Positions 2,335 through 4,954 of a stretch of DNA of 5,926 nucleotides are shown here, piece after piece (within the stretch, counting starts at the first letter, position 1; each line of letters starts with the position of its first letter). The stretch is from Bacteroidales bacterium (GTDB taxonomy: Bacteria; Bacteroidota; Bacteroidia; Bacteroidales; P3). The notes under the pieces were generated by a model, which was not told where the DNA came from, did no database searches, and was given only the letters and a program-made list of their open reading frames with translations. The stretch is taken from NCBI GenBank assembly GCA_017545365.1, contig JAFWOP010000072.1, positions 1 through 5,926 on the forward strand. The letters are read 5' to 3'. The translations under genes and the position numbers were made by a program.

Positions 2335-3222
2335 TTACTTTACCACGACCTTCTTCCCGTTTTGTATATATACCCCCTTGGGAAGTTTGTTAGAACCTTG
2401 AAACTCGGAACTATTTGCGACTCGTCGGCCCGAGAGGTCGTAGATGGCGGTTTCGGATGAACGGTAGCGCTTCTGCGATACGATGCCTGTGACGGGATTC
2501 GCATTGAAATCAGTGTTACTGAAAATGCATTCCCCATCCTCATAGCAGGCAAGGAATTGTCGTCTCTCTATCAGCCAGTGACCATTGGAATACCTATAGC
2601 CTGTTCCCGTAGCGTTGTAAAACGGGCCGTAAACACCTTCATTACGATTTCCTATACCGCGTATCCAGACATCCATGATGTAATCAGGATCTGCAGGATA
2701 GAATTGGGACCCATTGTCTTTATAGCTAAAAGAAAGGCGCTCGAAGTAACGGTCTCCCACCTGTATGGTGTCTTTCGATTTCACATACAGCAAAGGATTA
2801 TCAGGATTTCCCGAGAACTGGTTGGAATAGGGCGTGTTCTTGTCGCCGACCTCCAAATCAAAATTATAACTCACATGAGAACCACCTCCTTCGTTATAGA
2901 TGTAGTATAAACCGCGCCTCTCGCCGATAGTGGCTATCAGATAGGTGGTGTCGCGATAGGAGTCGGTGTAGTACAGTTTCTTATACGTGTCTTTGCCCCT
3001 TACAGTATCTCCCATCACAGTAAAATACGACTGCAAATACAATTCCTTTTCCTCCCAATTACCCAATGCAAAAGCGTCATGATCGGGATTTGTGCATTCA
3101 GACTCTGTAACATGGTGCTTATACACCCACTGCTTACCGTCTTTCAGATAGGTGCCGTAAATCTCTTGTGCCACCAGCAGCTGTGGCAGCAGCAATATTG
3201 CGAATAGTAGAACTTTCTTCAT
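2335..3222 (-). CDS. Secreted protein of unknown function with sorting-like C-terminal tail
   Basis: This 295-residue protein starts at the ATG at 3220-3222, where a signal peptide begins at once (MKKVLLFAILLLPQLLVA, cut before Q19). A GTG three codons upstream is possible but less likely. The body (residues 20-240) has the pattern of a common, uncharacterised Bacteroidales family: WVY near 32-34, GDT...GKDTYKKLYY at 71-85, a RRGLYYIYNE segment at 102-111, NFDLEVGD at 120-127, and WIRGIGN at 187-192. LACYEDGECIF (224-234) closes the body. Residues 259-295 (AIYDLSGRRV...LPKGVYIQNGKKVVVK) resemble short type A C-terminal signals of the type IX secretion system. The predicted location is therefore exported or surface-bound; no enzymatic motif is visible. 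It is transcribed from its own promoter and lies 77 bases upstream of the large LRR gene, whose C-terminal domain looks related to it. Confidence 0.87.
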   Translation of the reverse strand: MKKVLLFAILLLPQLLVAQEIYGTYLKDGKQWVYKHHVTESECTNPDHDAFALGNWEEKELYLQSYFTVMGDTVRGKDTYKKLYYTDSYRDTTYLIATIGERRGLYYIYNEGGGSHVSYNFDLEVGDKNTPYSNQFSGNPDNPLLYVKSKDTIQVGDRYFERLSFSYKDNGSQFYPADPDYIMDVWIRGIGNRNEGVYGPFYNATGTGYRYSNGHWLIERRQFLACYEDGECIFSNTDFNANPVTGIVSQKRYRSSETAIYDLSGRRVANSSEFQGSNKLPKGVYIQNGKKVVVK

Positions 3223-3300: not shown

Positions 3301-3494
3301 GGAAATCACTTAACAACTACTTAACAGTTTTGGTTGACGCCCGTTTTGTCACATAGAGAAAAATGGAAGAAATGCGTCATAATTCCCGATGAAATGGGCG
3401 ATTTTTGTATTCATTCGTGTGATTTGTGTTCGAAAAAAAAGAATCCCAGATGTTCTGCTACACATGCTACAATTGCATCACATGTTTCCATATC

Positions 3495-3758
3495 GCCCAA
3501 AAGCAATGCTTTTCACCTCTAAAAGCATTACTCCCAGACTCCAAAAGCATTGCTTTCAGACTGTCAGAACAATGCTCTTGGCCTCCAAAAGCAATGCTCC
3601 TTGCCTCCGAAAGCAATGCTTTGGGCGTTACGGAGCAATGCTTTGGAGGTTACAGAGCTATGTTCTGTATGGAACGGAGCTATGTTCTGTATGGTACGGA
3701 GCTATGCTCTGTATGGCACGGAGCTATGCTCTGTATAGTTTGGAGCAGTGCTCTAGAT
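3495..3758. repeat. Twelve-unit tandem array of imperfect palindromes, exact 22-bp period
   Basis: Twelve palindromic cores have centres at 3506, 3528, 3550, 3572, 3594, 3616, 3638, 3660, 3682, 3704, 3726 and 3748, with no insertion or deletion between any pair. Units 1-6 are built on AAAAGCAATGCTTTT (unit 1 at 3499-3513 is a perfect palindrome about a central A; others carry mismatches). Unit 7 (GGAGCAATGCTTT) is a hybrid. Units 8-11 follow CGGAGCTATGCTCTGTATGG; units 10 and 11 differ at one base. Unit 12 (GGAGCAGTGCTCT) is divergent, and the next 22 bases no longer fit. There are no unique 30-base spacers, so this is not CRISPR. The array lies downstream of the smaller LRR gene and about 195 bases upstream of the next promoter. 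Possible roles are a multi-site protein-binding array, a hairpin-rich transcript segment or an intergenic satellite; I do not recognise a named family. Confidence 0.93.
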
Positions 3759-3800: not shown

Positions 3801-3840
3801 CAGAAAGCCCTCTGCACAACACGACGGTTGGGCAGGGGGC
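3801..3840 (-). terminator. Likely intrinsic terminator of the smaller LRR gene
   Basis: Bases 3807-3820 pair with 3827-3840 around a 6-base loop (ACGACG). In minus-strand RNA 12 of 14 positions are Watson-Crick pairs, with two mismatches (3811/3836 and 3816/3831). On the minus strand the hairpin begins 58 bases after the LRR stop codon and is followed by TTTCTGTT, a short T-rich stretch. The plus-strand exit side (ATGCTTTGC) has no T run, so the orientation fits the LRR gene. The T run is weaker than in a textbook terminator. Confidence 0.6.
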
Positions 3841-3898: not shown

Positions 3899-4954
3899 TT
3901 ATTTTACAACCACCTTGCGAGTCTCGCCATTGCTCATCTTCACGACGTTCAGGCCCTTCTGCATGGCAGGCAGCTGGCGACCATTGATGTCGTAGATGCC
4001 CTTCAATGTGACCTGTTCTGTAGCCTGCTGGATGTTGGCAGTCTCGATGTTGTCCATTTCCGAGATCTTACCGAACTCCTTCCAGACGTCAGCACTCTGA
4101 TAGGCGCTCTTCGAACCCGTAGGAACCACAAGGCTTATTTTGGATAAATCCAGCTGATAGAACACGTTGGTGCCTAGGGTGGCAGGTTTTGCAGGAGCGG
4201 CGTAAACGGTCTTCAGGTTTTTGCAGGCTGCGAAAGCCAGCTTCTCGATGCTGGTGACGCCCTTGCCGATATAGACTGTTTCGACACCCGCTTTGGAGAA
4301 GGCTTTATTGCCGATGGTCTTCACGTGGTCGGGCACGGTGATGCTCTTCAGTGCCGAGCAGGAGGCGAACATCTCGTCCCCGATGGTAGTCAGGCCCTTG
4401 CCAATCGTTGCCGATGCAAGTTCACTGCATGACATGAAGGCGGCTCTGCCTACAGTGGTCACCTTGTCGGGAATGGCAATCCAGGTGATCGATGTGGCCG
4501 AGAAAGCACACTCGCCTATCTCAACAAGACTTTCAGGCAATTGCATGCCGGTGAGTTTATCACACGAGTCAAAAGCATAGGCCATGATTTTTTCGACACT
4601 TTTACCCAAGACTACCTTCTTCATGTTCCTCGACTGATAGAACGATTTCTCGTCGAGCGTCTTCACGTTGTTGCCGAGAGTGACCGATGTGATTCTCGAG
4701 TTATTGCCAAAAGCCCATTGGGAGACACCCGTCACCTTATAGGTAACGCCTTCGTAAACCACTTCATCGGGAACGACGATGTCGCCCTCGTAGTTCACAG
4801 AAGAAGCGTATTCTGAATACTTAGCCACCCAAACCTCGTTGGCCGACTTTTTGCTATAACGCAGGCCGTCAACAATGAAATCGTAAGCCCACATACTGCT
4901 GCTTGCCATGAGCATCGTTGCCAGGAGCAGCATCTTTGTCATATTCTTTTTCAT
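3899..4954 (-). CDS. BspA-like secreted leucine-rich-repeat protein with sorting-like tail
   Basis: This is a complete 351-residue protein. Residues 1-23 are a signal peptide (MKKNMTK, then LLLATMLMA, likely cut SMWA|Y). A short N-terminal segment with IVVPDEVVYEGVTYKVTGV (59-77) is the usual entry to an LRR_5 array. Seven repeats cover residues 79-237, five of 23 residues and two of 22 (148-169 and 216-237). A cap follows at about 238-300, with LVVPTGSKSAYQ and WKEFGKI typical of the family. The tail (319-351, GIYDINGRQL...KVVVK) resembles the tail of the 2335-3222 product and short type IX secretion signals. The protein is predicted to be surface-located; its ligand is unknown. It starts 59 bases after the lipoprotein gene's stop and may be co-transcribed with it; no exact TAnnTTTG box is visible in that gap. 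The chosen ATG gives a complete signal peptide; the ATG at codon 5 is an alternative. Its codons are GC-richer than those of the large LRR gene. Confidence 0.95.
   Translation of the reverse strand: MKKNMTKMLLLATMLMASSSMWAYDFIVDGLRYSKKSANEVWVAKYSEYASSVNYEGDIVVPDEVVYEGVTYKVTGVSQWAFGNNSRITSVTLGNNVKTLDEKSFYQSRNMKKVVLGKSVEKIMAYAFDSCDKLTGMQLPESLVEIGECAFSATSITWIAIPDKVTTVGRAAFMSCSELASATIGKGLTTIGDEMFASCSALKSITVPDHVKTIGNKAFSKAGVETVYIGKGVTSIEKLAFAACKNLKTVYAAPAKPATLGTNVFYQLDLSKISLVVPTGSKSAYQSADVWKEFGKISEMDNIETANIQQATEQVTLKGIYDINGRQLPAMQKGLNVVKMSNGETRKVVVK

Follow-up and report, generated by a model that had tools for sequence, protein, structure and literature searches.

The window analysed here, a 5,926-bp stretch of Bacteroidales DNA, carries an array of twelve palindromic sites between two of its genes. 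This array is a real element that occurs in many Prevotella-group genomes, and no previous description of such palindrome arrays was found in the literature searched, in which broad queries were only partly sifted and subscription journals scarcely covered. As read from the sequences, the element is marked by a 13-bp site, a 21- or 22-bp register, intergenic placement, an occurrence spread over many Prevotella-group genomes, and a palindrome that turns over while the geometry stays fixed. We lean, at somewhat better than even chances, towards the arrays being tandem operators for a cooperative, dimeric, sequence-specific DNA-binding protein that would coat or wrap the DNA of gene spacers; we infer the protein binding, the dimeric and cooperative nature of the binder and the wrapping of the DNA.

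A 13-bp palindrome in a fixed register

In the window array the palindrome centres fall at 3506 + 22n (n = 0–11), up to 3748, with zero slip, and cores that match AGCNNNGCT with no more than one mismatch begin at 3502 + 22n for the same twelve values of n. Complementary pairs were met in 62 of 84 cases over the twelve centres (seven pairs per side); among other spacings of 15–35 bp the top twelve-position comb in the window scored 48, at 33 bp, which is a multiple of 11, and the comb score of mononucleotide shuffles of the window (n = 300) did not exceed 44. Likewise, the three-unit pattern gave three matches in the window and none in 200 dinucleotide-preserving shuffles, and both shuffle tests rule out a chance origin of the array. 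An earlier note on this DNA had described twelve considerably diverged palindromes at an exact 22-bp period without slippage, and this is borne out by the cores and the comb, with mean pairwise identities of 0.74 for the 13-bp core, 0.33 for the 9-bp spacer and 0.57 for the whole unit. CRISPR arrays consist of near-identical repeats separated by unique spacers of ~30 bp, and an array with 22-bp units, 9-bp spacers and this unit identity is not one of them.

Table 1. Features of the window; the limits of each site are its centre ±6, taken from the motif pooled over 112 arrays.
Feature	Positions	Strand	Centre	Details
Array	3495..3758	.		twelve units of 22 bp, made up of a 13-bp palindromic site and ~9 bp of spacer (TRF, core search, comb score)
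Site 1	3500..3512	.	3506	AAAGCAATGCTTT
Site 2	3522..3534	.	3528	degenerate, 3/7 pairs
Site 3	3544..3556	.	3550	
Site 4	3566..3578	.	3572	one core mismatch
Site 5	3588..3600	.	3594	
Site 6	3610..3622	.	3616	
Site 7	3632..3644	.	3638	
Site 8	3654..3666	.	3660	one core mismatch
Site 9	3676..3688	.	3682	one core mismatch
Site 10	3698..3710	.	3704	
Site 11	3720..3732	.	3726	
Site 12	3742..3754	.	3748	
Upstream gene	3899..4954	-		BspA-type leucine-rich repeat protein, 351 aa (ORF and Pfam)
Downstream gene	2335..3222	-		ATG at 3222 (longest ORF from GTG 3231); without a Pfam match; start resembling a signal peptide
Candidate terminator hairpin of upstream gene	3807..3840	-		followed by TTTCTGTT; weak (z -1.33; 19/200 shuffles fold equally well)

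The product of the downstream gene is probably secreted, and the candidate hairpin, which lies between the stop of the upstream gene and the array, was left unscored by the terminator script. Between the array and the downstream gene, ~25–30 bases at window positions 3381–3410 (query ~1120–1153) recur at 90–100% identity in many Prevotella genomes and may represent a conserved element of a promoter or leader. By DNA, no convincing orthologue of the window locus was found among 299 genomes (best match 45 bases), and by protein only partial paralogues were found, in 12 of 22 genomes. A plasmid or phage origin of the array was rejected, as blastn against phage and plasmid collections gave no match, and an Rfam scan of the window returned 0 matches above the gathering score.

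Pooling 112 arrays and 527 units delimits a 13-bp palindrome with sharp edges, RRAGCWWWGCTYY, and after it a 9-bp spacer that varies almost freely. Positions -6 to +6 are rich in information and ±7 to ±11 hold 0.04–0.17 bit, although many arrays were located via AGC cores, so that AGC/GCT conservation is partly ascertained; positions ±5 and ±6 were not used for finding, and the centre only partly. This refines the core given in the earlier note, as the motif is RRAGC-WWW-GCTYY and not one fixed core.

Spacing was examined in 83 Prevotella-group loci, assigned to the group by record title (one is titled Bacteroidaceae), where exact-core neighbours 12–40 bp apart lay at 22 bp in 223 of 249 cases, at 21 bp in 9, at 23 bp in 13 and elsewhere in 4, the loci themselves having been located with spacings of 20–24 bp permitted. 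In the Hoylesella marshii sample all 32 neighbouring exact cores were at 22 bp, over spacers with an identity of 0.45 within arrays versus 0.43 between arrays. Adjacent spacers in the two rumen genomes RUG178 (G001) and RGIG7592 (G002) are more alike (identity 0.58 and 0.55, versus 0.29 and 0.32 between arrays), which indicates that arrays there also grow through local duplication. Four units make up 13 of 15 arrays in H. marshii, all six in G004 and 12 of 14 in G135 (the other two have five); in G002, seven of 13 arrays have six, and the modal number is thus not always four. With 10.5 bp to the turn, a 22-bp step amounts to 2.1 turns, which makes the placement of every palindrome on the same helix face, as had been supposed, an approximate one; by arithmetic, twelve units could keep strictly to one face only with ~11 bp per turn or with wrapping. 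On relaxed B-DNA each 22-bp unit would turn by ~34 degrees, which would make a wrapped or slightly underwound path more natural than a one-sided one.

Several genomes carry the same geometry with other palindromes. The G001 sample contains five arrays of AT-rich palindromes of the AAATTAASTTAATTT type at 22 bp; AT-rich units are flanked on both sides by AGC units in an unbroken register in L260, L267 and L271, the AGC flank is clear on one side in L274, and it is not clear in L266. Likewise, AGATGGCCT units carry on the register in KH2P17 (G006) and AGCAGCCCT units do so in Prevotella illustrans (G008). The arrays of G135 are built from AAAGGTWACCTTT at 22 bp, a palindrome that is also present in G154, with a GGTSACC variant in G043 (2/150 genomes by exact triples). 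In G053, GTCACGNCGTGAC units are spaced at 21 bp and all 12 CACGNCGTG neighbours lie at 21 bp; 10 of 14 neighbouring AGC units in this genome (range 12–44 bp) are at 22 bp, with G/C-rich centres unlike the WWW of the AGC family. Two further G053 arrays at 21 bp (L364 10320, L365 1106) have successive palindromes that differ in sequence, for example TTCAAGGCTTGAA beside TCCGCGGCGTGGA, and could be a sign that the constraint is on structure and not on a specific sequence.

Core-free scans for palindromes at equal steps peaked at 22 bp in G001, H. marshii (G003), G135 and G007, and at 21 and 22 bp in G053. A second peak in H. marshii, at 41 bp, is due to unrelated repeats, and a further peak at 33 bp in G001, when palindromes alone were scored, is expected if dyads fall every 11 bp. 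The 41-bp tandem repeats of H. marshii form unrelated families, most with a short palindrome per unit (L278 2210; L281 11054; L284 1104; L287 17383; L288 617 and 8708), and in the consulted part of PMC4596501 MITE464 of Porphyromonas gingivalis is likewise described with 41-nt repeats.

The earlier note had read the array as one whose spacing is kept while its sequence drifts, and both the neighbour counts and the exchange of palindromes in register uphold this. The same note offered a neutral satellite expanding via unit duplication as its alternative, and such duplication is real in the rumen genomes, where adjacent units are alike; for the window, TRF also reports a higher-order period of 66 bp. 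A satellite leaves unexplained, however, why the site is conserved and the spacer is not, why different palindromes turn over at one fixed spacing and share one register, and why the spacing in H. marshii is fixed over unrelated spacers, and we hold it to be very improbable as the whole account. Unit duplication and dimer sites are not mutually exclusive.

Distribution and placement between genes

The earlier note had proposed a search of related genomes for cores spaced at 22 bp, and this revealed arrays in many Prevotella-group genomes, with the spacing kept over differing sequence. In a contig scan at least 119 stretches matched three units at 20–24 bp spacing, and among the matches listed 83 were from Prevotella, Hoylesella or Prevotellaceae. 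Exact triples at 22 bp numbered 151 in G001, 122 in G002 and 20 in H. marshii, with 0 matches to the reversed pattern, and 13 of the 15 genomes searched carry at least one. Within the genus of G001, 14 of 150 genomes have at least one exact triple, and the reversed control matched two of 150, once each. These counts are a floor, since G135 scores 0 for both patterns searched, yet 200 kb of it contain 14 arrays built on a different palindrome.

Array density reached 29–65 per Mb per register in five of nine sampled Prevotella-group genomes (G001, G003, G135, G007 and G053), although the regions from H. marshii, G053, G008, G006 and G014 were chosen partly for containing matches and densities there may be high. 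No array at 22 bp was detected in the sample of G032, and weak or different arrays were seen in G105 (3 matches), G087 (3) and G037 (6), those of G087 and G037 being even-centred. In viral contigs, 108 stretches (L120–L227) match the loose three-unit pattern. Tandem AGC-type or similar units at 21 bp were also noted in Prevotellaceae (L077 ~128–347), Prevotella (L002 7842–7955) and Tannerellaceae (L050 1236–1391), where the unit sequence is more uniform than in the 22-bp arrays.

Arrays are largely confined to the spaces between genes. Across G001, G003, G135 and G007, none of 47 arrays lies within an ORF of at least 100 aa, though such ORFs make up 83–87% of the sequence, and in G053 three of 19 do. 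The 93 array-bearing gaps (56 same-strand, 21 converging, 16 diverging) do not differ significantly from other gaps in gene orientation, and no preference for converging genes is claimed, their gaps being 18 of the 83 with arrays versus 13.4 expected by length (p 0.08). In same-strand gaps the array is closer to the upstream stop in 40 of 56 cases (p 1.6e-4), and at 98 gene ends the terminator script placed a terminator before the array in 36 and beyond it in 25. The two putative surface-protein genes of the window, to which attention had been drawn, are incidental neighbours: among 54 proteins that flank other arrays no Pfam family was matched more than twice, and many of the genes are housekeeping genes.

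One gene boundary is common to G001 and G002. Its flanking protein is 92% identical over 139 aa, and conservation covers both a terminator-like hairpin to one side of the array and, to the other side, the stretch upstream of the following gene. The array itself has 13 in-register positions (some degenerate) in one species versus 6 in the other, a comparison for which one blastp row set included sub-arrays of one array.

Arm variation, folding and the putative binder

Complementary pairs at ±6 showed no excess in any of six array sets, and those at ±5 showed none in the five single-genome sets; in the pooled set, pairs exceeded shuffles at ±5 and at ±7 to ±9. Among the 58 units of G135 there is none in which both arms carry an identical variant, and at least one arm still has the consensus in 54. 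Just outside the site, the number of pairs at ±9 in G001 was reached by 0 of 500 shuffles and at ±8 by 22 of 500, and in G002 that at ±8 was reached by 0 of 500. Units related by duplication inflate the ±8/±9 counts, yet the counts leave room for a structural constraint.

On either strand, predicted folding of the window array is far stronger than that of its shuffles (z -8.9 and -9.7), as for any row of palindromes. When spacers or cores were exchanged between real arrays the change in folding was significant (p<0.05) in 0 of 8 tests, the lowest p being 0.058 and in the direction of weaker folding of the real arrays. Shuffling the spacers of G135 lowers folding (mean z -1.5) and swapping them between arrays does not, so the effect reflects their common composition. 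The possibility that the palindromes work as hairpins in RNA, in single-stranded DNA or as cruciforms, for example as 3'-end structures of mRNA, draws on this strong folding and on the extra complementarity at ±8/±9 in G001 and G002. However, the site arms do not covary at ±6, nor at ±5 in single genomes, the variant arms of G135 are uncompensated, and the predicted folding is not array-specific; independent arms together with folding that is insensitive to swaps make hairpins very unlikely and favour a protein dimer on duplex DNA. The cooperative dimeric protein proposed in the earlier note is strengthened to this extent, as dimer sites for a putative binder are favoured over hairpins.

Fixed spacing over free spacers, arrays of four sites and the exchange of palindromes in register suggest dimers in mutual contact. 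Under the operator reading, one dimer would sit on each 13-bp palindrome and touch its neighbours two helical turns away, and the dimers would coat or wrap the DNA that separates transcription units. Four sites may then form one complete particle in several species, and the twelve sites of the window would be a longer stretch. More speculatively, the role could be one in chromosome organisation or in insulation between transcription units, not in single-gene control; the diverse neighbours, the position of arrays nearer to gene ends than to starts and their confinement to spacers point towards such an architectural or insulating role. We count in favour of operators the array that two species retain at a shared gene boundary with different numbers of positions (13 versus 6), and against them the duplication of units in the rumen genomes, the ±8/±9 pairs, a modal number that is not always four, G032 with no arrays detected, and the small number of weak or different arrays in G037, G087 and G105. 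A clear dyad at the level of the array is present in G135, where 33 of 56 inner half-sites are variant versus 13 of 56 outer ones; it was rejected as a general trait, being significant in none of six AGC sets.

A candidate for the reader is a protein of the Lrp/AsnC (feast/famine) family, in which case each four-site array would be wrapped by a single octamer, made of four dimers. As described in the consulted part of PMC2995911, Lrp dimers bind imperfect inverted repeats of 13–17 bp whose centre is AT-rich and which are clustered at distances of two or three turns; the dimers form DNA-wrapping octamers, and FL11 was crystallised on a 13-bp palindrome. The AGC-family palindrome of 13 bp with its WWW centre, in sites 21–22 bp apart, matches such operator clusters in geometry, and all 18 genomes searched encode one to three Lrp/AsnC members. 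However, the arrays sit between unrelated genes, unlike Lrp/AsnC clusters, which the same source, as we read it, places in the control regions of regulated genes, and no orthogroup tracks the arrays across the 18 genomes. Neither the presence of Lrp nor a change in its recognition helix follows the palindrome type: in the commonest group the helix VSRAAIHQRVQ[HR]L is identical in the GGTNACC genomes G135 and G154 and the AGC genomes G001, G002 and G053, in a comparison that rests on 29 readable of 42 matches. The sole feature that sets G135 and G154 apart is the segment after the helix (ILGSSFN versus ITGSGF/Y). Furthermore, the one member of H. marshii belongs to the commonest group and the single members of G004 and G007 to another, and G032, with no detected arrays, has three. 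We therefore regard an Lrp/AsnC reader as improbable.

Relation to known repeats and meaning of the arrays

The nearest published Bacteroidales repeats are PINSR and BrickBuilt. PINSR of Prevotella intermedia is intergenic and noncoding, with 177 and 184 copies in two strains and, in the consulted part of PMC4755523, no terminal inverted repeats. It shares with our arrays a Prevotella host, intergenic placement and a lack of coding capacity; compared by description in that part of the source, it differs in being one 188-bp consensus and not a palindrome register, and it may belong to this array class or stand apart from it. Prevotella (now Hoylesella) marshii DSM 16973 was PCR-tested for PINSR and, in the same text, is not among the four species reported positive. 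Five of the six G037 matches (L304 6676, L305 18958, L309 2471, L313 8831 and L316 12592) appear to be copies of a single dispersed element whose even-centred palindromes (TTCTATATAGAA) are spaced at 22 bp and which resembles PINSR in being one conserved sequence. BrickBuilt of P. gingivalis, a MITE with tandem repeats of 22, 23 and 41 nt and 19 copies in one strain (PMC4596501, in part), is likewise a Bacteroidales repeat, intergenic and made of tandem 22–23 nt units. As described there, it departs from the arrays in its 23-nt unit of unrelated sequence, its leader and tail, its IS5-like terminal repeats and its direct repeats in place of palindromes.

REP/BIME elements with their RAYT transposases are described in the consulted part of PMC3733652 as tagged single palindromes of 20–40 bp, and the arrays are like them in being dispersed, intergenic and species-specific in their families, and in forming complex arrays. 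Transposases of the Y1 type (PF01797, broader than RAYT and the one family covered by our test) were missing from six of 13 array genomes and present in nine of 11 others, on which grounds membership of REP/RAYT was rejected, and the GTAG/CGTC end tag of REP elements is not visible in the unit consensus, in which alone it was sought. The earlier note likewise saw no fit to CRISPR or REP patterns.

More broadly, the arrays could be selfish dispersed repeats of REP or MITE type that are spread by some transposase and tolerated between genes, with the regular spacing demanded by the copying machinery. Their dispersed, intergenic, species-specific families are what such repeats would show, PINSR is amplified in the view of its authors (PMC4755523, in part), and the H. 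marshii arrays L038 and L295 have 102 bp in common at 87% identity, a similarity that takes in the array and ~22 bp to one side of it and then stops. Array ends in G135, G004 and H. marshii also have a weak outward-facing consensus. However, terminal repeats are inconsistent (none at G002 ends, weak at most at G001 ends), the Y1-type transposases do not follow the arrays, and position is kept between species at one boundary, and so we find this origin rather unlikely, if the least remote of the alternatives.

On the boldest reading, the arrays would be a new, hitherto undescribed kind of chromosomal element whose geometry is invariant (13-bp palindromes with dyads every 21 or 22 bp, often four per array) and whose sequence is replaced between species. 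It is possible, and we put it forward only tentatively, that their reader is a fast-evolving dimeric nucleoid protein or a group of paralogues, which would assemble wrapped, nucleosome-like particles, positioned by sequence, in many Prevotella spacers between transcription units. With a bait sequence, a prediction of spacing and natural specificity variants at hand, the arrays are directly testable. If true, this would give meaning to an intergenic repeat class that lacks a description in the literature searched. If a protein does read the arrays, members of Prevotella, an abundant group of the gut, rumen and mouth, would own an architectural DNA system of about a hundred positioned complexes per genome, with a protein–DNA code that has turned over between species at constant geometry.
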